In this document: positions 10,270-30,823 of the stretch, one piece after another
Position numbering within the stretch: the stretch's first letter is position 1
How the letters are laid out: each line of letters opens with the position of its first letter
NCBI GenBank assembly: GCA_012522755.1
Contig: JAAYJV010000136.1
Span: 1-41,652 of the forward strand
DNA length: 41,652 bases
Direction: 5' to 3'
From: Candidatus Hydrogenedens sp.
GTDB taxonomy: Bacteria; Hydrogenedentota; Hydrogenedentia; Hydrogenedentales; CAITNO01
The notes under the pieces: generated by a model
The model's database searches: none
Told to the model about the DNA's origin: nothing
The model's input: the letters and a program-made list of their open reading frames with translations, nothing else
Translations under genes and position numbers: made by a program

Positions 10270-13200
10270 TCAGTTTTTCAGGGTGGCACGGATCACAGAG
10301 GCTTCCTCTTCGCAATAGGGTGTGCCATCGGGGCGGAAGACATCGTGGAACCAGGGCTCCGCTTCGTTTTCAAAAGGCTCGTTCCAGGAATGCCAGGGAT
10401 AAATGGTTTGAGAGCGTCCGGAAACCAGTCCCCAATGGACAGCAGCGATATTCTGTTCTCGCAAATAAGGAAGCACCGTCTGGAAAGTGCTGCCCGAAGT
10501 GCGAGCCATGTATTCCGTGCAGAAGATAGGTCTCTGACATTGCTGCAGCCATGCCACGGCTTTTTTCACGCCCAGGACATTCTGATAGCTGTGGAAGCTG
10601 ATGAAGTCGGAGCGTTCCCCCATGAGTTTGTCGATGGGCCGCACCGGATTGATGCGTGATCCCGGGCCTCCCCAGATGCCCACGGTTATTGGCTGTGAGG
10701 GATCCACTTCCCTGGCCCAGTCAAAGAGCTTGTCCACCAGAATCACATGGGCCTCTTCTTTTTCCTGCGGCGACCATCCTTCTGTGGGCCTGTATTGAGG
10801 CACCGGGTTGGCAGGTTCATTCAAAAGATCCCAGGCCAGTACCCGCGGATCATCTTTGAAACGGGACATGATGGCAATGACATAAGGCTTCAATGCTTCT
10901 TCATAGCCTTCGGGATTCTTCTGAATATCAATGTGCGGGCTCTGCAACCACCGTGAATTATGGACGCCCGGGACGGGCTCCTTCTGGGGGCCCAGTTCGG
11001 GGAAAGGATCCCAGACACTGTCGAAGAGGGTGAGCATTGTTTTGATACCATGCTTCATGGATATGTCCAGGTATTCATCTATGCGTTGTTCGTAGGCCGC
11101 TCCCTCCTCTTTCCAGAGCATGTCATGAAGGAAAACGCGCATCATGTTGAAGCCGAGATCAGCCGCCCAGCCGAGCTCTCTGTCGATGGTCTCGGGGTCC
11201 CAGGTGTCGGCCTGCCACATCTCCAGCTGGTTGGATGCCGTGGAAGGTACGAAGTTGGCACCGGCGGGGAAAGCTTCTTTGGCATACCACTCGCGGATAC
11301 GTTCCAGGCTCCAGCGTCCCTCTTCTTTTTCCCAATGGATCACTGTCTCATCGCCCACTTTGGGGATGCGAAGCAGGGTGACACTGTAGGGGTCCAGGGT
11401 CAGGCTCTTGTCCACATTCTGCAGAAAGATTTCCTGGATGGCCGAATTCTCAGGGGCATCCGCTTCGTTCCTTATATAAGGGTTGTCATTTTGAATCTGC
11501 CAGCCATGCAGAGATTCCGGCACTGTCAGGCCGTCTATCTTCAGCTGAAAGGAACGGGGTTCATCGTGGGGATTCACAGCCGCCAGCGTCAGAGCAGAAT
11601 GGTCCGCCGTCCAGGCCGCAGCGAGATCAACACCCGGCAGACCATGCTCCACCGCTACGGGAAGTGTGCCGAAATGTTTGCGGTACAGCACCAGTACCTG
11701 CCCCATGCTTTCCAGGAAAGCTCCTGTCCGGGTTGTTTTGATGGCTCCCAGCACATTCACGGTCTGTGCATAATTGGCCATATAAAAAAGGTCGCTGTTG
11801 CGGATCATGGCGTGGATCGCACCTGCACAACCGAAGGCATCACGCATCTCATAGCGTACGCCCAACTCACCACGCTTGTGCGGTCCGCCGTAATTCCATT
11901 CGTCAAAGGCGATGCGTATATCTTTCTCTTTCAACCCGGGAATCTCGTTTCTGTAACGGCGGTGATCAGCGGCGAGACGCTCCACATCATTGATGGCTGA
12001 CCAGGTATGAGCAGCCACATCATCCCTGGGCTGCCAATACTGATGTTCACTGATAAGCTCCATATGATCGGCGCACTCAGCGAGCATGGTTTCACTCCAG
12101 AGACCGGCATTGCCCACAGCCACACATTTGGCTTCAGGCGATATGGCACGTATGGCATCGACGAGAGCGTTCTGTTTTTTCACATAGTCTTCCAGCGGCA
12201 TGTACCCGAGCTGCCAGTCGCCATACATTTCATTGCCCACGGCCCACCAGATTACTTTCCAGGCTTCTGTCCGTCCGTTGGCGGCGCGCTTCTTCCCTTC
12301 TTCCGTATCAGCAGCCGCTGTGATATAGGCCACTTCCGCCGCAGCCGATTCGATATCGCCCAGTCCTGTATTGAGAGCGATGAATGGTTCTGTGTGGATG
12401 AGCTCGCAAAGGCGCATGAATTCATGGATACCCACATCGTTATGCTCAGCCCCCGGCCAGTGGGGATTCTTCCGGGGCGGTCGCTTGTCTCTGGGTCCGA
12501 CACCGTCACGCCAGTCGTAGCCGCTGACAAAATTACCTCCCGGCCAGCGATAAATGGGCGCATCCAATTGGCGCATGAGTTTCAAGGTGTCGGGACGGAA
12601 GCCTTCCACATGATCGGCTGGCATGAGTGACGGCGCAGCTATAAAGACACGGCCTTCACCGGAGAAACGGAAAGTGAGGCGTGCGTGCTTACTGGCATCA
12701 CCGGCGGTGAAGCGGAAAGCAATCTGCTCGAAAGACTCCCGGATATCCTGAAGAGTTGTAACAGCTTCCTGGTTCGCTCCCGGTCCCCATTGCAGAGCAG
12801 CTTGAGCTTTTGTTACTTCCCCTTCAGCGCGAAGCCATACATAACCCACATAGTCCTTGCCTTTCTCCACAGCCAGACGGGGATGGTAAATACCTTGCCA
12901 ATCGCCGCCATTGTTTTCAAGGATAAGGGCACAATCCTGGTCGCCACAGAAAGGCGCATCGTGATTCATGAAGACCTGTTCTTGCGGGCCTATAATACGC
13001 CAGAGAGAGCTTTCAGGAACTTTATAAGGATTGCCCCTTTCTTCCCAGAGGACTTCATTGCCCGCATAGGGGCCGCCATCTACAGGATAGAAAAACTTGC
13101 GGTCTTGCAACATCTCCGCCCAGATACCGCCATAGATACACCGACCCATATGTTCAATGAATTGTCCATATATATAAGGAGAGACGGGCTCGCCTTCCTC

Positions 13201-13299
13201 TTCGGCAAGAACATGTACCGTCTTCAATGCTCCCGCAGGCTGAGAGAAAAATAAGGTCAGGGAAAGAAGGCTCACAAAAAATACGGACAGATATCTCAT
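10270..13299 (-). CDS. two-enzyme fusion: GH51 alpha-L-arabinofuranosidase-like plus GH5-like C-terminal domain
   Basis: The 1009-residue protein starts at ATG (MRYLSVFFVSLLSL) behind AAAGGA; the same start context is seen in the paralogue upstream. After the signal peptide, residues about 25-650 are GH51-like with acid/base Glu357 (AVGNEMYG) and nucleophile Glu467 (FDEWNYGG). From about 665 a second TIM barrel of the cellulase/xylanase type follows, with Glu828 (LLNEPANP) and Glu929 (CTEYMART). GH51 removes arabinofuranose side chains and the second domain would cut a backbone, so the fusion suggests attack on arabinoxylan or a similar branched polymer. The exact linkage is inference. The sialidase gene follows 37 bp downstream. 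Confidence 0.88.
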   Translation of the reverse strand: MRYLSVFFVSLLSLTLFFSQPAGALKTVHVLAEEEGEPVSPYIYGQFIEHMGRCIYGGIWAEMLQDRKFFYPVDGGPYAGNEVLWEERGNPYKVPESSLWRIIGPQEQVFMNHDAPFCGDQDCALILENNGGDWQGIYHPRLAVEKGKDYVGYVWLRAEGEVTKAQAALQWGPGANQEAVTTLQDIRESFEQIAFRFTAGDASKHARLTFRFSGEGRVFIAAPSLMPADHVEGFRPDTLKLMRQLDAPIYRWPGGNFVSGYDWRDGVGPRDKRPPRKNPHWPGAEHNDVGIHEFMRLCELIHTEPFIALNTGLGDIESAAAEVAYITAAADTEEGKKRAANGRTEAWKVIWWAVGNEMYGDWQLGYMPLEDYVKKQNALVDAIRAISPEAKCVAVGNAGLWSETMLAECADHMELISEHQYWQPRDDVAAHTWSAINDVERLAADHRRYRNEIPGLKEKDIRIAFDEWNYGGPHKRGELGVRYEMRDAFGCAGAIHAMIRNSDLFYMANYAQTVNVLGAIKTTRTGAFLESMGQVLVLYRKHFGTLPVAVEHGLPGVDLAAAWTADHSALTLAAVNPHDEPRSFQLKIDGLTVPESLHGWQIQNDNPYIRNEADAPENSAIQEIFLQNVDKSLTLDPYSVTLLRIPKVGDETVIHWEKEEGRWSLERIREWYAKEAFPAGANFVPSTASNQLEMWQADTWDPETIDRELGWAADLGFNMMRVFLHDMLWKEEGAAYEQRIDEYLDISMKHGIKTMLTLFDSVWDPFPELGPQKEPVPGVHNSRWLQSPHIDIQKNPEGYEEALKPYVIAIMSRFKDDPRVLAWDLLNEPANPVPQYRPTEGWSPQEKEEAHVILVDKLFDWAREVDPSQPITVGIWGGPGSRINPVRPIDKLMGERSDFISFHSYQNVLGVKKAVAWLQQCQRPIFCTEYMARTSGSTFQTVLPYLREQNIAAVHWGLVSGRSQTIYPWHSWNEPFENEAEPWFHDVFRPDGTPYCEEEASVIRATLKN

Positions 13300-13355
13300 G
13301 GTATTTCCTTTATATTGGCGTTTAAAGTACTCTGCCACAACGGGGACGATTTAAT

Positions 13356-13736: not shown

Positions 13737-15704
13737 TCATCGCTCACTTTTGGGAATACGCACCAGAGTGATACTGTAGGGCGGCAGGTTGACAGTGTTC
13801 TTGCTCACTTCCAGAACAACATCTTTGATGGATACGCTGTCGGGTGTATCAGCCTCGTTCACCATATCGGGATCATCGTTCTGGATCTGCCAGCCGTGAA
13901 GCGATTCAGGAACTTCCAAGCCATCCACTTCCAGTTGAAAGGAAACAGGCTTGCCGTTGGCATTCACTACAGCCAGTGTCAGAGCTGAATGATCCGTGGT
14001 CCAGGCTGCGGCGACATCGACACCGGACACATTTTGTTGCACCGTCACAGGGAGAGTACCGAAATATTTTCGATAGAGCACGAGTGCCTTGCCGGTGCTT
14101 TCCATAAAAGCCCGGGTCTTCGATGCTTTGATGGCGCCCAGCACGTTCACGGTCTGTGCATAATTGGCCATATAAAAGAGATCGCTGTTTCGGAACATGG
14201 CATGGAGCGCTCCGGCACATCCCAGCGCATCGCGCATCAGGTAGCGTACGCCAAGTTCACCATACTTGTTCGGACCGTACCAGTAGTTCCATTCATCCAA
14301 AGCGATGCGGATATCCTTGTCTTCCAGTCCGGGTATCTTTTCTCTGTACCGGCGATGATCTGACGCCAGGCGTTCCACATCATTCATGGCTTTCCAGCTG
14401 TGATGTACCACATTGTTGATATGCTGCCAGTAGAGATGTTCACTGATGAGTTCCATGTGTTCGCTGCAGTTGGTGAGCATGGTTTCGCTCCAGGGACCGG
14501 CATTGCCCACGGCAACACATTTTGCTTCAGGCGAAACGACACGAATGGCCTCGACCAGGGCATTGTGTTTTTTCACATAGTCTTCCAGAGGCATATGACC
14601 CAACTGCCATTCACCATACATCTCATTGCCCACAGCCCACCATACCACTTTCCAGGGCTCTGTCCGCCCGTTGGCGGCGCGCTTCTTCCCTTCTTCCGTA
14701 TCAGCGGCACCAGTGATATATGTCACTTCCTCCACGATGGACTCAATATCACTCAGGCCCGTATTGAGAGCAACAAAGGGCTCCGTATGAATGAGCTCGC
14801 AAAGGCGCATGAATTCGTGAATCCCCACATCATTATGTTCGACACCGGTCCAGGCGGGATTTTTGCGGGGAGGCCGCTTGTCTCTGTCACCGACCCCGTC
14901 ACGCCAGTCGTAGCCACTCACGAAGTTGCCACCCGGCCAACGGTAAATGGGCGCATCCAACTCACGCATCAGTGTCAATACATCAGGGCGGAAGCCTTCC
15001 ACCTGATCTGTCGGCATGAGCGAGGGTGAAGCGATAAAGACACGTCCTTCGCCGGTAAAACGAAAAGCAAGACGGGCATCATCATCAGCCTCTCCGGCGG
15101 TGAATTGAAAAGCGAGCTGCTTGAAGGAGTCATTGATATCCTGCAGGGCAACCACAGCTTCCTGTGTCGATTCCGATCCCCACTGCAAGACGGCCTGTGC
15201 TTCCTTCACCTCTCCTTCACAGCGAAGATAGACATAGCCTTCATAGTCTTTGCCTTTTTCCACAGCCAGCCGGGGATGGTAGATGCCCCGCCAATCTTCG
15301 GAATTATCCAACTTTACAGCGCAATCCTGTTCGCCACAGAAAGGGGCCTCTTTATTCATGAAGACTGCTTCTTGCCCGCCCATAATCTGCCAGGGCGATG
15401 CCTCCAGAATTTCATAAGGCTTGCCGTCTCCTTCCCAGGAGTTTTCCTGGCCCCGATGCATGCCCCAGCCTTCCCGGCTCCCGTCGACGGGATACAGGAA
15501 CTTACGGTCTTCAAGCATCTCCGCCCAGATACCTCCATAGATACAGCGGCCGAGATGCTCAATGAACTGTCCGTATACATAGGGCGAAATGGGCTCCCCT
15601 TCAGCCTCGGCGCGCACATGTACAGTCGACTGAGCACAACATGACAGAGAGAAAAGCACGGCAATGGAAAGAACACCCAAAAACGATACAGACAGATATC
15701 TCAT
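13737..15704 (-). CDS. GH51 alpha-L-arabinofuranosidase-like protein, truncated duplicate of the fusion enzyme
   Basis: The 655-residue protein begins MRYLSVSFLGVLSI with a signal peptide ending near CCAQ, behind AAGGGA. It is closely similar to residues 1-650 of the adjacent fusion enzyme, and both GH51 catalytic glutamates are kept: Glu361 (AVGNEMYG) and Glu471 (LDEWNYWY). Its last residues are RIPKSER. In the fusion gene the same place reads CCCAAAGTG; here it is CCCAAAAGTG. This one extra A shifts the frame into an immediate TGA. The GH51 unit alone should still fold and act, since free-standing GH51 enzymes are normal. It is separated by 437 bp of repeat and remnant sequence from the fusion gene. 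Confidence 0.92.
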   Translation of the reverse strand: MRYLSVSFLGVLSIAVLFSLSCCAQSTVHVRAEAEGEPISPYVYGQFIEHLGRCIYGGIWAEMLEDRKFLYPVDGSREGWGMHRGQENSWEGDGKPYEILEASPWQIMGGQEAVFMNKEAPFCGEQDCAVKLDNSEDWRGIYHPRLAVEKGKDYEGYVYLRCEGEVKEAQAVLQWGSESTQEAVVALQDINDSFKQLAFQFTAGEADDDARLAFRFTGEGRVFIASPSLMPTDQVEGFRPDVLTLMRELDAPIYRWPGGNFVSGYDWRDGVGDRDKRPPRKNPAWTGVEHNDVGIHEFMRLCELIHTEPFVALNTGLSDIESIVEEVTYITGAADTEEGKKRAANGRTEPWKVVWWAVGNEMYGEWQLGHMPLEDYVKKHNALVEAIRVVSPEAKCVAVGNAGPWSETMLTNCSEHMELISEHLYWQHINNVVHHSWKAMNDVERLASDHRRYREKIPGLEDKDIRIALDEWNYWYGPNKYGELGVRYLMRDALGCAGALHAMFRNSDLFYMANYAQTVNVLGAIKASKTRAFMESTGKALVLYRKYFGTLPVTVQQNVSGVDVAAAWTTDHSALTLAVVNANGKPVSFQLEVDGLEVPESLHGWQIQNDDPDMVNEADTPDSVSIKDVVLEVSKNTVNLPPYSITLVRIPKSER

Positions 15705-26740: not shown

Positions 26741-27472
26741 TCAGTCCCTGACAGGCTTCGGGGCGGTAATGAAAACCGCTCCTTCCCTGATCCCGGGAGA
26801 AAGAAGCCCGGCCTCAGGCGTTGCGCCGGAGTGGTCGCGAATGCTGATGGATGATACTGTCTCTGAGACCTGAGCGCGGATCAGGAAGTGCAGTTCCGCG
26901 AGTAAAGTGCTTTCAATGGTATCCTGCCCCCCATAAACAACCAGCGTCAGCACACCTGCAGCGCGCTTGTGACCATCCATCTCTTTGCCTGCTGAACTCA
27001 CTTTCTCGCTCACAGCCATTTCCTGAAAGATCATCTCATCAGGATCATAAAGCACCGTGAAGAGCAACGTGGACGCGGCCTTTTCACCAGCCTCATAAAT
27101 AACCGGAATGCGAATTTCCGTATCAGCCGGAGCTGCGGCCGTACCCAGAACAATCATCCCTTCCTCAGGAACGGGCTGTTGTGAACCGCTTCCGGCCGCC
27201 CAGCTCTGGGATATGGACTGGCTGTCCTGATAATGATACCACCCACCCCCTTGAGACAGCTTCAGAGCCTGTATGGCAAAGACCATGGGATTGTACTGTG
27301 TCTGCCAGTCTTGAAGATATCGTTGCGCCTCCTCCGGGCTGATCTGCCAGTCTCCATCCCTGTCTGCAGGATGAAGCCAGTTGTTTTCGGCTGCAGCCAA
27401 GTCAGACGGACAGAGCATTACAAAAGCCGCAGCCACAAGTGCGGTATATAAAAAGAGCTGTTTATTCATCAT
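26741..27472 (-). CDS. secreted EF-hand plus cohesin-like domain protein
   Basis: The 243-residue protein starts at ATG 27472 or the next ATG (27469); a start further upstream would lie before the promoter. A signal peptide (LFLYTALVAAAFVML) is followed by one perfect EF-hand loop, DRDGDWQISPEE at about 37-48, and then a GGGWYHY segment. The C-terminal half (about 100-235) has a cohesin-like beta pattern: IRIPVIYEAGEKAAS, TVLYDPDEMIF and later TLLAELHFLIRA. Dockerins have two EF loops, so this is not a standard dockerin. It may mediate calcium-dependent adhesion or assembly at the cell surface. It is divergent from the cobalamin-controlled gene. Confidence 0.65.
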   Translation of the reverse strand: MMNKQLFLYTALVAAAFVMLCPSDLAAAENNWLHPADRDGDWQISPEEAQRYLQDWQTQYNPMVFAIQALKLSQGGGWYHYQDSQSISQSWAAGSGSQQPVPEEGMIVLGTAAAPADTEIRIPVIYEAGEKAASTLLFTVLYDPDEMIFQEMAVSEKVSSAGKEMDGHKRAAGVLTLVVYGGQDTIESTLLAELHFLIRAQVSETVSSISIRDHSGATPEAGLLSPGIREGAVFITAPKPVRD

Positions 27473-27498
27473 TGTGCCTGTTCCAAAAGTATCGCTAA

Positions 27499-27528
27499 AG
27501 TATACCCTCCCTGTGAAGGCATCGTCAA
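27499..27528 (-). promoter_or_regulatory. sigma70-type promoter of the EF-hand/cohesin-like gene
   Basis: On the minus strand TTGACG (27528-27523), an 18-nt spacer and TATACT (27504-27499) form a near-consensus promoter, predicted to start around 27492, 20 nt before the gene. It fixes the start codon choice. Confidence 0.7.
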
Positions 27529-27569
27529 TGTGCTGAGTCTGAGAACTCTTTTTCATTCCCCTGCTCTTT

Positions 27570-27582: not shown

Positions 27583-27801
27583 GCAGGTCGGTTCGTCAGT
27601 GCGACAGGCGCACTGATGCTAAGAGGGAATCCGGTGAAAATCCGGAACTGCCCCGCAGCGGTAATCAGGAACGAACGGCACACTTCTTCCAGCATCGGAA
27701 GAAACAAAGCACTGGTCTCCATGGGCGAGACTGGGAAGCGGTGCTCAGTAGAAAAGACCTCTCCTCCGGAGAAGTCCGGGCCTGCAAGTCCGAAGACCTG
27801 C
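27583..27801 (+). ncRNA. cobalamin (B12) riboswitch aptamer
   Basis: The conserved core is clear: GAGGGAATCCGGTGAAAATC, then GCCCCGCAGCGGTAA (about 27623-27664), a B12-box-like AGCACTGG near 27709, GACTGGGAAGCGGTGC, and the 3' end AAGTCCGAAGACCTGC. The ends close in a perfect 7-bp P1 helix, GCAGGTC (27583-27589) with GACCTGC (27795-27801). Cobalamin riboswitches normally turn expression off when B12 is plentiful. The only gene downstream is the surface protein at 27931. Confidence 0.95.
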
Positions 27802-27829
27802 CGATACAGGAACTGTTGTCCTTCGGGCG

Positions 27830-27926
27830 AACCCTTCGCGGGAAGGGGGTTGCGCACTTTCTCCGCTCCCCTCCTTCTGTCTGTGAAAACCCTTCTCCCG
27901 GATGACATCCAACCGAACGAGGGTTT
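27830..27926 (+). promoter_or_regulatory. translational expression platform of the riboswitch
   Basis: AACCCTTC occurs twice (27830-27837 and 27888-27895), with GAAGGGGGTT between (27842-27851) able to pair with either. AAACCCT (27887-27893) can also pair with AGGGTTT (27920-27926), which contains the GAGGG ribosome site of the gene at 27931. If 27842-27851 pairs with the second AACCCTTC, the ribosome site is free; if it pairs with the first, the site can be hidden. No T tract is present, so control is probably on translation. Confidence 0.65.
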
Positions 27927-27930
27927 CACC

Positions 27931-29268
27931 ATGTCTCACTCCCCTTTCTTCACGCTCTCTCTGGTCGTCGTGCTTTTTTCTTCCGCTTTTGCGGCAGCCT
28001 ATGGCCCTGTCCCCGCAAATCAGGCGGAAATAGAAGAGCTACTCCTCTTTCCGCTGACAACCTCAAGTGCCCTGGTCAGCTTTGACTGGGATCCCGAAGG
28101 CACCCTTCATTATACGGTGGGCGACCCCAACTTTGGCCTCAAACTGGAAGTGTACAAAGCTGCTGAAGGAGGAGACCAGCTTCTTTTTTCCTCTTCTGAT
28201 GTCTGGGTGGGCTCACGCATTACCCGCATAGGCGATCATATGTTTTTTAACGATGGTGGCGATTATATCAATCCGGATTACAATTATTATGGCTATGCAG
28301 CCACCAGTCCGGAGACCATATTCCCTGTTCTCGAGGCCCCTTTTGAAGCCAGTTTGTGGGGACTGGAAACGCGCAATGAAGGTGAGTTTTTCGCCTCCGG
28401 TGCCGCTTTCTCCTGGGGCCCCGCCGCCTTGTTTTTTGGGCTCATGGATAATAGCGGTCAATTGAGTACGCGCCCTGTGATTCAATTCGCGGAGCTGGGC
28501 GATTCAGCAGGTCCCCTTTGCTTTGATAATTCAGGGACACTGTACTATGCTCATGGATATGCCTATGACGGTACCGGCCGTATCTTTCGGTGGACAGCCG
28601 AGGAAGTGGCCGCAGCCCTGGCTGATCCGCTGAACAATTCCTTGTCCATGGAAGGGCATGTGTGGAATGACCTCCCTGCTCCTTATGATGGTTCGACAGG
28701 TATAGCTTGTGATGATTTCGGCAATGTTTACGTGACGGCAACAGCCTGGGGATCGCCGAGCCAGTTGCTGCTTTACAACGCACCTTCTTCAGAGCCTGTT
28801 ACCGTTGCGGAATATGAGGGTCGTCTGGAGACAGTACGCTATCGTGATCGCAGTATTGCTGTCAGCTGTGGGGCCGGTGTTTTCTCAGTCCCTCTCCTCC
28901 GCATTAATTCAGGGACAGGCTCGCAGCTGCTCTCCGGAGTTGTGGGCGAGACTGTGGTTTTTGCTGTGGATGTGGAAGGCGGTATAGGCGAACGGCATTT
29001 CCAGTGGTTTGAGCAGTCATCCTCCAAGACTTCCTTGCCTGTAGGATCGGATGCTTCTTTTTATGCTCTTTCTGTCAGCGAATCAGACCATGGAAAAAGC
29101 TTCTATTGCGAAGTATCCGATGCCAGCTGCACGCTTCAATCCCCACTGTTCACGCTATCTGTTGAGAAATCTGTTCCCGCCAGTTCCTGGAAGACACTCG
29201 TTGCAGCAGTATTTCTTCTGGCTCTCAGTACCGGCATCATTCTGCGGAGATCATTCAGGGATTGCTGA
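27931..29268 (+). CDS. cobalamin-regulated surface protein: beta-propeller-like, Ig-like, C-terminal membrane anchor
   Basis: The 445-residue protein starts at ATG 27931 with GAGGG 7 nt upstream. The open frame continues upstream through the riboswitch only by chance. A signal peptide (LVVVLFSSAFAAA) is followed by propeller-like repeats: FDWDPEGTLHYT, CFDNSGTLYYAHGY, IACDDFGNVYVTATAW. Residues about 315-405 look like an immunoglobulin domain (FQWFEQSSSK, SESDHGKSFYCEV). The C-terminus is a membrane helix with a basic tail (AVFLLALSTGIILRR). The protein family is not recognised. Being under B12 control, it is likely to take part in corrinoid capture, as the propeller BtuG does in Bacteroides; this is analogy, not homology. 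Its 3' end overlaps the convergent SGNH gene by 14 bp. Confidence 0.75.
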   Translation: MSHSPFFTLSLVVVLFSSAFAAAYGPVPANQAEIEELLLFPLTTSSALVSFDWDPEGTLHYTVGDPNFGLKLEVYKAAEGGDQLLFSSSDVWVGSRITRIGDHMFFNDGGDYINPDYNYYGYAATSPETIFPVLEAPFEASLWGLETRNEGEFFASGAAFSWGPAALFFGLMDNSGQLSTRPVIQFAELGDSAGPLCFDNSGTLYYAHGYAYDGTGRIFRWTAEEVAAALADPLNNSLSMEGHVWNDLPAPYDGSTGIACDDFGNVYVTATAWGSPSQLLLYNAPSSEPVTVAEYEGRLETVRYRDRSIAVSCGAGVFSVPLLRINSGTGSQLLSGVVGETVVFAVDVEGGIGERHFQWFEQSSSKTSLPVGSDASFYALSVSESDHGKSFYCEVSDASCTLQSPLFTLSVEKSVPASSWKTLVAAVFLLALSTGIILRRSFRDC

Positions 29269-30823
29269 CAGCGCCCTGCAGTTCCTGTTCCAGGAAAGGT
29301 TGCAAGCTTTCAAAAATAATATTTGCCTTGAGTTCCACGCCGGGATTGCGCAGGTGACAGATATCCCCGAAGAAATTGGCTGTCCCGATGAGATTTTCGG
29401 CGACAGGGATATAGAGGATGTCTGAATCTTCGCAGAAGGCTTTGATGGCTCTGTTGTACTGCTGCAGGATTTTCAGGTAGACGGCGAAAGACACATAGCG
29501 TCCGCCCCAGCTCGTGCGGGTGATCTGCTCGTAATAGTCCCGTTCGTCACGGCTCAGTTGTGTCACATCAGGGGCTGCAAAGCTGCACATGGCCAGAGCC
29601 ACCCCTTTCTCCCGGGCACAGTCATGTATGAAACGGAAATTCTCCATATTGTAGTGGTCAATATCTTCAGCAATATCCTCGTCTGAAGGAATAATCAAAT
29701 TACCCAGATACCGGATGATGAATTGGCTGCGCCACAGCGTCCTGTCTATGGGTCCGCTCCATTGTACCCACATGGGCAAAAGATGATGGCAGATATCGTT
29801 GACCGCGTTATAAAAGAGCATCAGATCCGGTTCCAATGCGAGATAATCAGCAATGCGTATTTTGTGTTTGTTGGAATTCATCCCGGAAAGTCCGCAATTG
29901 ATGACATCGATCTTTTTTTCACCAAAATGACGATTCAACAATGTTTCAAGAATTGCCGGATAGGTGAGATCGTTGAGGGGCCCTTCTTCGGTGGTGGAAG
30001 CACCGATACACAGGATCCTGTAACAGCCCTCTGGTTTGGGAAGGATCACATCATAATCACGGAAACCATGGTTGTTCATTCTGAAATGCTGGGCCATGAC
30101 AAAGGCATTGGGAATGAACTTCAGATCCATGTGTTTTTTTCCGGCAAAATAAGGGATTTCCCAGATACTGTCCTCAGGCATATCTTCCCAGACCTTATTA
30201 CGGGGACATGCCATCCACAAAAGAGTGTCGGCTCTTGAATCTGTTTCGGGGAGATCGGGAAAGAGACAATAATCGAATGGCCCCACTGAGTCACCCCGGC
30301 TGCGTTGGAAAAAACGGATATCCTTTTCTTCCGCTACTGCATTAAAGGCCTTCAAGAGTGTTTGTGCATCTTCAGCCGGGATGATGGCACTGAGTGATCC
30401 GCCTTGATCCGGTTCGCCATCGAGAAAACTGTCCACAACACGGCCATTTTCCGTAATTGCACAGAGCTGGAGAGCATAGAGGTCAGCAAACATCCGGCGT
30501 TCATCAGCATTCAGCCGCAGAAACAAAGGATAGCGCTGGCGCATGTCTTCTTCAGCTGAAGCGGGAGCCAGGAGCTCGGCCGATTTTCCCGGTCCGCGGA
30601 ATGCTTCACGCTGTTCTTCGTCCTGCAAAAACTCAGAAAAGAGATCGGACTCATCTCTGGGAATGGGCCAGAGTTTCCCTTCAAAACGTGACAGAAGAAA
30701 GGGATTGTTCTTTTCTATGTAATTCCACCGCCAGCGTGCCCAGCCTTCCAGGGCAAGCCCCAGCATGGCCAACCAGAGGCCGAGTATAAAGACCATGTAG
30801 AGAAAGCGTCCCAGATATTTCAC
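29255..30823 (-). CDS. membrane-anchored SGNH/GDSL hydrolase-like protein
   Basis: The 522-residue protein has one N-terminal membrane helix (FLYMVFILGLWLAMLGLALE), a region of about 230 residues with no recognised fold, then an SGNH domain. Block I reads CIGASTTEEG with Ser276; NCGLSG, YNAVND and the final D487/H490 in DICHLRNPG supply the other blocks. Such domains add or remove acyl groups on lipids or polysaccharides. Its start overlaps the end of the GT39-type gene by 4 bp (ATGA type), so the two are translated together and probably act in the same surface-glycan pathway. The 3' end overlaps the convergent gene by 14 bp. Confidence 0.82.
   Translation of the reverse strand: MKYLGRFLYMVFILGLWLAMLGLALEGWARWRWNYIEKNNPFLLSRFEGKLWPIPRDESDLFSEFLQDEEQREAFRGPGKSAELLAPASAEEDMRQRYPLFLRLNADERRMFADLYALQLCAITENGRVVDSFLDGEPDQGGSLSAIIPAEDAQTLLKAFNAVAEEKDIRFFQRSRGDSVGPFDYCLFPDLPETDSRADTLLWMACPRNKVWEDMPEDSIWEIPYFAGKKHMDLKFIPNAFVMAQHFRMNNHGFRDYDVILPKPEGCYRILCIGASTTEEGPLNDLTYPAILETLLNRHFGEKKIDVINCGLSGMNSNKHKIRIADYLALEPDLMLFYNAVNDICHHLLPMWVQWSGPIDRTLWRSQFIIRYLGNLIIPSDEDIAEDIDHYNMENFRFIHDCAREKGVALAMCSFAAPDVTQLSRDERDYYEQITRTSWGGRYVSFAVYLKILQQYNRAIKAFCEDSDILYIPVAENLIGTANFFGDICHLRNPGVELKANIIFESLQPFLEQELQGAVSNP

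Follow-up and report, generated by a model that had tools for sequence, protein, structure and literature searches.

The closest described systems come from Bacteroides. BtuG, a surface beta-propeller, has seven blades and itself binds corrinoid, and in BtuG1 the propeller is fused to a BtuH domain (PMC10404256); BtuH2 binds B12 via its C-terminal domain (PMC8941943). Here we analysed a 41,652-nt window (the whole stretch of DNA under study) from a Candidatus Hydrogenedentota MAG, which is 95% complete (G000; same genus as G001), and found a cobalamin riboswitch in front of a gene for an exported protein, P0001, that is predicted to contain a six-bladed beta-propeller. We consider P0001 likely to be an anchored corrinoid-capture propeller that is analogous to BtuG without being a BtuG, with both binding and surface exposure being inferred.

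The cmscan search of the window returned a single Rfam match, the Cobalamin family RF00174 (Table 1). This match scored 92.6 bits (gathering threshold 31.5; E = 7e-22) and covered model positions 1–189, the full length of the model. P0001 is the sole gene downstream of the riboswitch, because both neighbours point the other way: the gene at 26741–27556 (−) diverges from it and the gene at 29255–30823 (−) converges on it. RF00174 was present 60–264 nt upstream in 14 of the 14 testable P0001 orthologues (a fifteenth, truncated by a contig end, was excluded from the count), and the pairing spans 7 genera at 33–61% identity. The background for this count is about 92 RF00174 sites in 60 genomes, and the 14 cases are not independent events, as the genomes share ancestry. 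Taken alone, the leader's folding energy (z = −0.44) tells nothing, so the riboswitch claim rests on the covariance model and conservation. A chance riboswitch was ruled out by the bit score and the 14/14 conservation, and a riboswitch serving a different gene was ruled out by the opposite strand of the neighbouring genes. Both the riboswitch and the gene order are shown.

Other genes of the window were judged by eye only. The divergent neighbour looks secreted and seems to combine a cohesin-like region with a stretch resembling an EF-hand or dockerin (DRDGDWQISPEE). Two adjacent similar genes, at 10270–13338 (−) and 13737–15704 (−), look like alpha-L-arabinofuranosidases, the longer one having an additional C-terminal glycosidase-like part.

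A hairpin with a GCGGG loop just 3' of the aptamer was present in 8 of the 11 orthologous leaders inspected, and it is possible that this loop kisses the CCCGC of L5, as inferred from complementarity without pairing data. No plus-strand terminator was found in the leader, and with the folding energy uninformative the mode of regulation is left open. Judging by analogy with other members of this riboswitch class, we infer that B12 is likely to repress translation. P0001 is thereby expected to be B12-repressed (an OFF switch), an inference made without cobalamin-binding or expression data.

Table 1 Features of the riboswitch–P0001 locus (window coordinates)
Feature	Position	Strand	Basis or remark
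Cobalamin (B12) riboswitch aptamer, RF00174	27572..27817	+	cmscan; conserved before 14/14 testable orthologues
CCCGC, L5 region; could form a kissing loop with the hairpin at 27832–27847	27652..27656	+	inferred: sequence, Rfam alignment, complementarity to GCGGG
Small hairpin CCCTT-CGCGGG-AAGGG; inferred candidate for P13/L13 in the expression platform	27832..27847	+	orthologous leaders
Ribosome-binding site GAGGG within the conserved AACGAGGGTTTC block	27919..27923	+	most orthologues have this block ahead of the start codon
P0001: exported six-bladed beta-propeller (predicted), Ig-like domain and C-terminal anchor, 445 aa	27931..29268	+	riboswitch-controlled gene
Signal peptide MSHSPFFTLSLVVVLFSSAFAAA, without lipobox cysteine	27931..27999	+	sequence
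Six-bladed beta-propeller (predicted), residues 35–321	28033..28893	+	AlphaFold2, Foldseek
Ig-like domain, residues about 328–412	28912..29166	+	profile matches to PDB Ig domains; AlphaFold2
Sorting-like tail at the C terminus (VP motif, membrane helix, Arg-rich end)	29170..29265	+	sequence

The fold of P0001 is a model prediction. AlphaFold2 with 16 sequences placed a propeller, an Ig domain and a helix at residues 420–444 in the whole protein (pLDDT 88.1). Because the Ig domain blurred the Foldseek search with full-length P0001, the propeller was modelled separately, which gave 24 strands forming six blades of four (pLDDT 91.9, pTM 0.91). The propellers 2p4o and 1rwl were the best Foldseek matches of this model, at a TM of about 0.68; nearly all of the 50 matches shown were propellers, and no BtuG structure was among them. 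The Pfam SBBP propeller repeat fell slightly under its cut-off (19.9 vs 20.5 bits). No BtuG chain appeared among the PDB profile matches shown, PF16819 was not found in 16 members of the P0001 family, and DUF4465 had no match in P0001 or in P0002, the second riboswitch-controlled protein described below. The signal peptide has an A-x-A cleavage site and no cysteine at that site, so P0001 lacks a BtuG-type lipoprotein anchor. Among 60 related genomes, full-length counterparts of P0001 occurred only in its own bacterial family, where nearly every genome has one; outside the family, just the Ig-plus-tail module matched, a common surface module that numerous large surface ORFs of these genomes carry.

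The original prediction, made from sequence alone, had claimed a cobalamin riboswitch with a single gene behind it, encoding a signal peptide, propeller-like repeats, an Ig-like domain and a membrane helix at the C terminus. All of these claims held: the predicted fold favoured the propeller, and the helix was followed by an Arg tail; the riboswitch start given there, 27583, lies 11 nt inside the aptamer.

G000 has two cobalamin riboswitches in total. The other one (G000:C63) controls P0002, a 716-aa protein, together with a pilin-like gene that overlaps P0002 by four bases. In hmmsearch, the P0002 family (profile A3) matched PDB 7biz (E = 3.1e-18), which we take to be the BtuH2 structure, because the BtuH paper names this entry and its 501-residue chain agrees with the construct that was crystallised, 103–593 plus tag. 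The same profile matched chain B of 8blw (E = 1.6e-17) at the BtuH domain fused in BtuG1. Profile searches thus show P0002 to be homologous to the C-terminal, B12-binding domain of BtuH2; that P0002 itself binds B12 is inferred. An NGNGLPDDxWY block is conserved in the family; the published B12-contact residues were not mapped singly. Separately, residues 22–130 of P0002 (L003:10438–12588) gave a weak match to the NCBIfam LIC_13355 lipoprotein model (35.7 bits, cut-off 120), and on this below-threshold match it is no more than possible that LIC_13355 lipoproteins share a BtuH-like B12-binding domain.

We then surveyed the cobalamin regulon across the order. RF00174 was found in 54 of 60 relatives, with 92 sites listed including the two of G000; 82 sites were taken, of which 78 had enough downstream sequence to read. 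Genes were called within 4.5 kb on the same strand, pilin and BtuF by motif and the others by profile. The first recognised gene was a BtuH-like protein at 30 sites, a propeller of a second family (A2) at 20, a pilin at 12, a P0001-type propeller at 11 and BtuF at 4, with none at 1, so that 77/78 readable sites lead with a propeller, BtuH-like protein, pilin or BtuF. The recurrent co-regulation with BtuH-like proteins is shown by these data. P0001 is very likely to be a component of a corrinoid-capture regulon. A link of propeller, pilin (DUF1559) or PEP-CTERM to a cobalamin riboswitch was not found in the titles and abstract starts of the open-licence literature searched. The survey names three B12-regulated protein families of no assigned function, two propellers and the pilin.

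The propeller-like family A2 lies in sister families, where 26 of 28 gene starts are 110–283 nt behind RF00174, and is missing from the bacterial family in which P0001 is present. P0001 and A2 fill one regulatory slot in different families; the propeller fold of A2 is inferred, as it has not been modelled. Sequence similarity between the two was not detectable by hhalign (1.5%), and homology between them is not supported. Two propeller families without detectable similarity in one slot would be a clear non-orthologous replacement.

The survey also turned up unusual arrangements of the pilin-like genes. At six loci (L074, L099, L101, L112, L119 and L202), a single ORF encodes the BtuH-like protein with its anchor helix at the C terminus, followed by a leader of the class III prepilin type ([GA]FTL[IV]ELL). 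This ORF is the first downstream of the riboswitch in five genomes and the second in L202; such a fusion could conceivably be cut apart by prepilin peptidase. In genomes other than these six, the BtuH-like and pilin genes often overlap by four bases. At eight loci (L087, L091, L097, L106, L115, L192, L197 and L198), the gene directly behind the cobalamin riboswitch, with no BtuH-like gene intervening, is pilin-like, has a GWFG[PR] tail and is of no known function. One site, G054:C11:52302–52814 (L196), has a tandem pair of cobalamin riboswitches, both on one strand, ahead of a pilin-like ORF.

Does the propeller itself bind the corrinoid? An alternative is that it is a B12-regulated partner or scaffold: it would bind no corrinoid and would instead dock another component, be it an unknown outer-membrane channel, the pilin or the BtuH-like protein. 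Propellers are often protein-binding platforms, the BtuH-like protein could bind alone, and the dissimilar A2 family in the same slot would fit a general partner role. Against this, residues conserved family-wide open the inner strand of every blade (S50, G94, G144, G194, G254 and R298), as expected of a central pocket, and the Bacteroides propeller is itself the binder (PMC10404256). We regard the scaffold reading as unlikely. The inner-strand residues fit a ligand site in the central channel, an inference for which there are no docking or binding data, and P0001 is likely to be a corrinoid binder on the same inferential footing.

Few Verrucomicrobiota have a P0001-type propeller (5 of the 289 genomes sampled). 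A BtuH-like gene adjoined the P0001 homologue in 8 of 8 loci examined, one of which is labelled Bacteroidetes in its record; the match at L216 was weak but significant. Riboswitch, propeller, BtuH-like gene and pilin form one cassette at L135 and L138, the full row recurs with a diverged copy at L222, and the order at L216 is riboswitch, BtuH-like gene, propeller. At L223 and L224, a TonB-dependent receptor adjoins the propeller/BtuH-like pair. No riboswitch was found near these two receptors and their B12-receptor model scores were below cut-off, so we call them receptor-like and not proven BtuB. One ORF from Chthoniobacteraceae (L137:5935–7944) encodes a P0001-type propeller in frame with a PEP-CTERM-like stretch and a BtuH-like domain, which echoes the BtuG1–BtuH fusion of Bacteroides.

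These neighbourhoods bear on another alternative, that P0001 is B12-regulated on account of a non-corrinoid ligand, such as cobalt, or a B12-independent substitute pathway. Cobalamin riboswitches do also control cobalt transport and B12-independent isozymes. Against this reading stand the constant BtuH-like company, the TonB receptor in two genomes and the absence of any enzyme domain detectable by Pfam in P0001, and we hold it to be very unlikely. P0001 as an enzyme or B12-independent isozyme was ruled out, no such domain having been found.

We then considered how P0001 is anchored. Its hydrophobic-P-TM-R tail recurs on most other riboswitch-controlled proteins and had no match among the curated CTERM models; the verrucomicrobial homologues carry true PEP-CTERM signals. 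G000 encodes a protein of the exosortase/archaeosortase family (TIGR04178, 53.3 vs 23 bits) that is closest to XrtH and falls under the cut-off of that model (77.4 vs 86). One possible reading is that P0001 sits in the inner membrane via its C-terminal helix and faces the periplasm as a corrinoid sponge, not a surface catcher; it overlaps with the preferred explanation except for location. In its favour, a single C-terminal helix with an Arg-rich end may be a plain stop-transfer anchor, and the XrtH-like score is just below the specific cut-off. Against it are the true PEP-CTERM signals of the homologues and the family-level exosortase score, which is above cut-off. We infer that surface display of P0001 is likely.

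On the import side, G000 contains six B12-binding domains over cut-off and therefore uses B12, and the presence of Omp85 and secretins suggests that the cell is diderm. An operon without a riboswitch (G000:C85) encodes BtuF-, BtuD- and BtuC-type proteins. The presence of these genes is shown; their substrate is only inferred, because the calls are below the NCBIfam B12 cut-offs. TonB plug domains were detected in three control genomes but neither in G000 nor in ten further members of its family. This absence is likewise shown, and the BtuBG type of hand-over thus cannot apply.

In the preferred explanation, scarcity of corrinoid would let the riboswitch permit P0001 expression, the OFF-switch direction being inferred. 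P0001 would be exported and then held by its sorting-like tail, where the six-bladed propeller may bind corrinoid in its central cavity and would work with the BtuH-like P0002, under the only other cobalamin riboswitch of the genome. The corrinoid would then be handed, again by inference, to the BtuF–BtuD–BtuC-type ABC transporter. Outer-membrane crossing without BtuB is unexplained, and the lack of detected TonB-dependent receptors in the family of P0001 raises the question of how B12 crosses there. A bolder and unlikely reading is a TonB-independent outer-membrane B12 route, with the anchored propeller and BtuH-like protein catching the corrinoid and the pilin drawing it through a secretin to BtuF; it is conceivable because the linked pilin is commonly encoded beside the BtuH-like gene and shares a reading frame with the BtuH-like protein in six genomes.

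The proposal of the original prediction, an independently evolved corrinoid-capture protein, was supported, as both of the checks it named that could be computed favoured it. The predicted fold is a propeller, and homologues lie behind cobalamin riboswitches (14/14), beside BtuH-like genes and, in two genomes, beside a TonB-dependent receptor; independent evolution fits six blades versus the seven of BtuG, no BtuG match in PDB and no PF16819. Corrinoid binding and exposure at the surface rather than towards the periplasm remain unproven.

Among known systems, the B12-binding jelly-rolls BtuJ/DUF4465 (PMC13398666) are exported high-affinity binders of several clades and often lie near propeller genes; they are beta-jellyrolls, whereas P0001 is a predicted propeller. 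The tail of P0001 resembles those of the PEP-CTERM/exosortase (XrtH-like) system in its hydrophobic-P motif, helix and Arg. BtuH, the B12-binding surface lipoprotein of Bacteroides (PDB 7BIZ; PMC8941943), is B12-regulated and has its domain in common with P0002, which differs in that its BtuH domain is N-terminal and that it is anchored C-terminally and not by a lipid; P0001 itself is without a BtuH domain. BtuG (PDB 3DSM, 8BMX, 8OKV, 8BLW; PMC10404256) is exported, controlled by a cobalamin riboswitch and associated with BtuH, and P0001 is alike in these respects. However, P0001 has six blades in the model versus seven, and a C-terminal membrane tail with an Ig domain where BtuG has an N-terminal lipid anchor; BtuG is encoded with the TonB-dependent transporter BtuB, whereas P0001 has no BtuB partner in G000. 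P0001 as a BtuG was ruled out by its six blades and by the lack of sequence similarity, lipid anchor and BtuB. In the preferred reading, surface B12 scavenging, as characterised in Bacteroides, would extend to a little-known phylum, with anchoring of another kind and propellers of an unrelated family.
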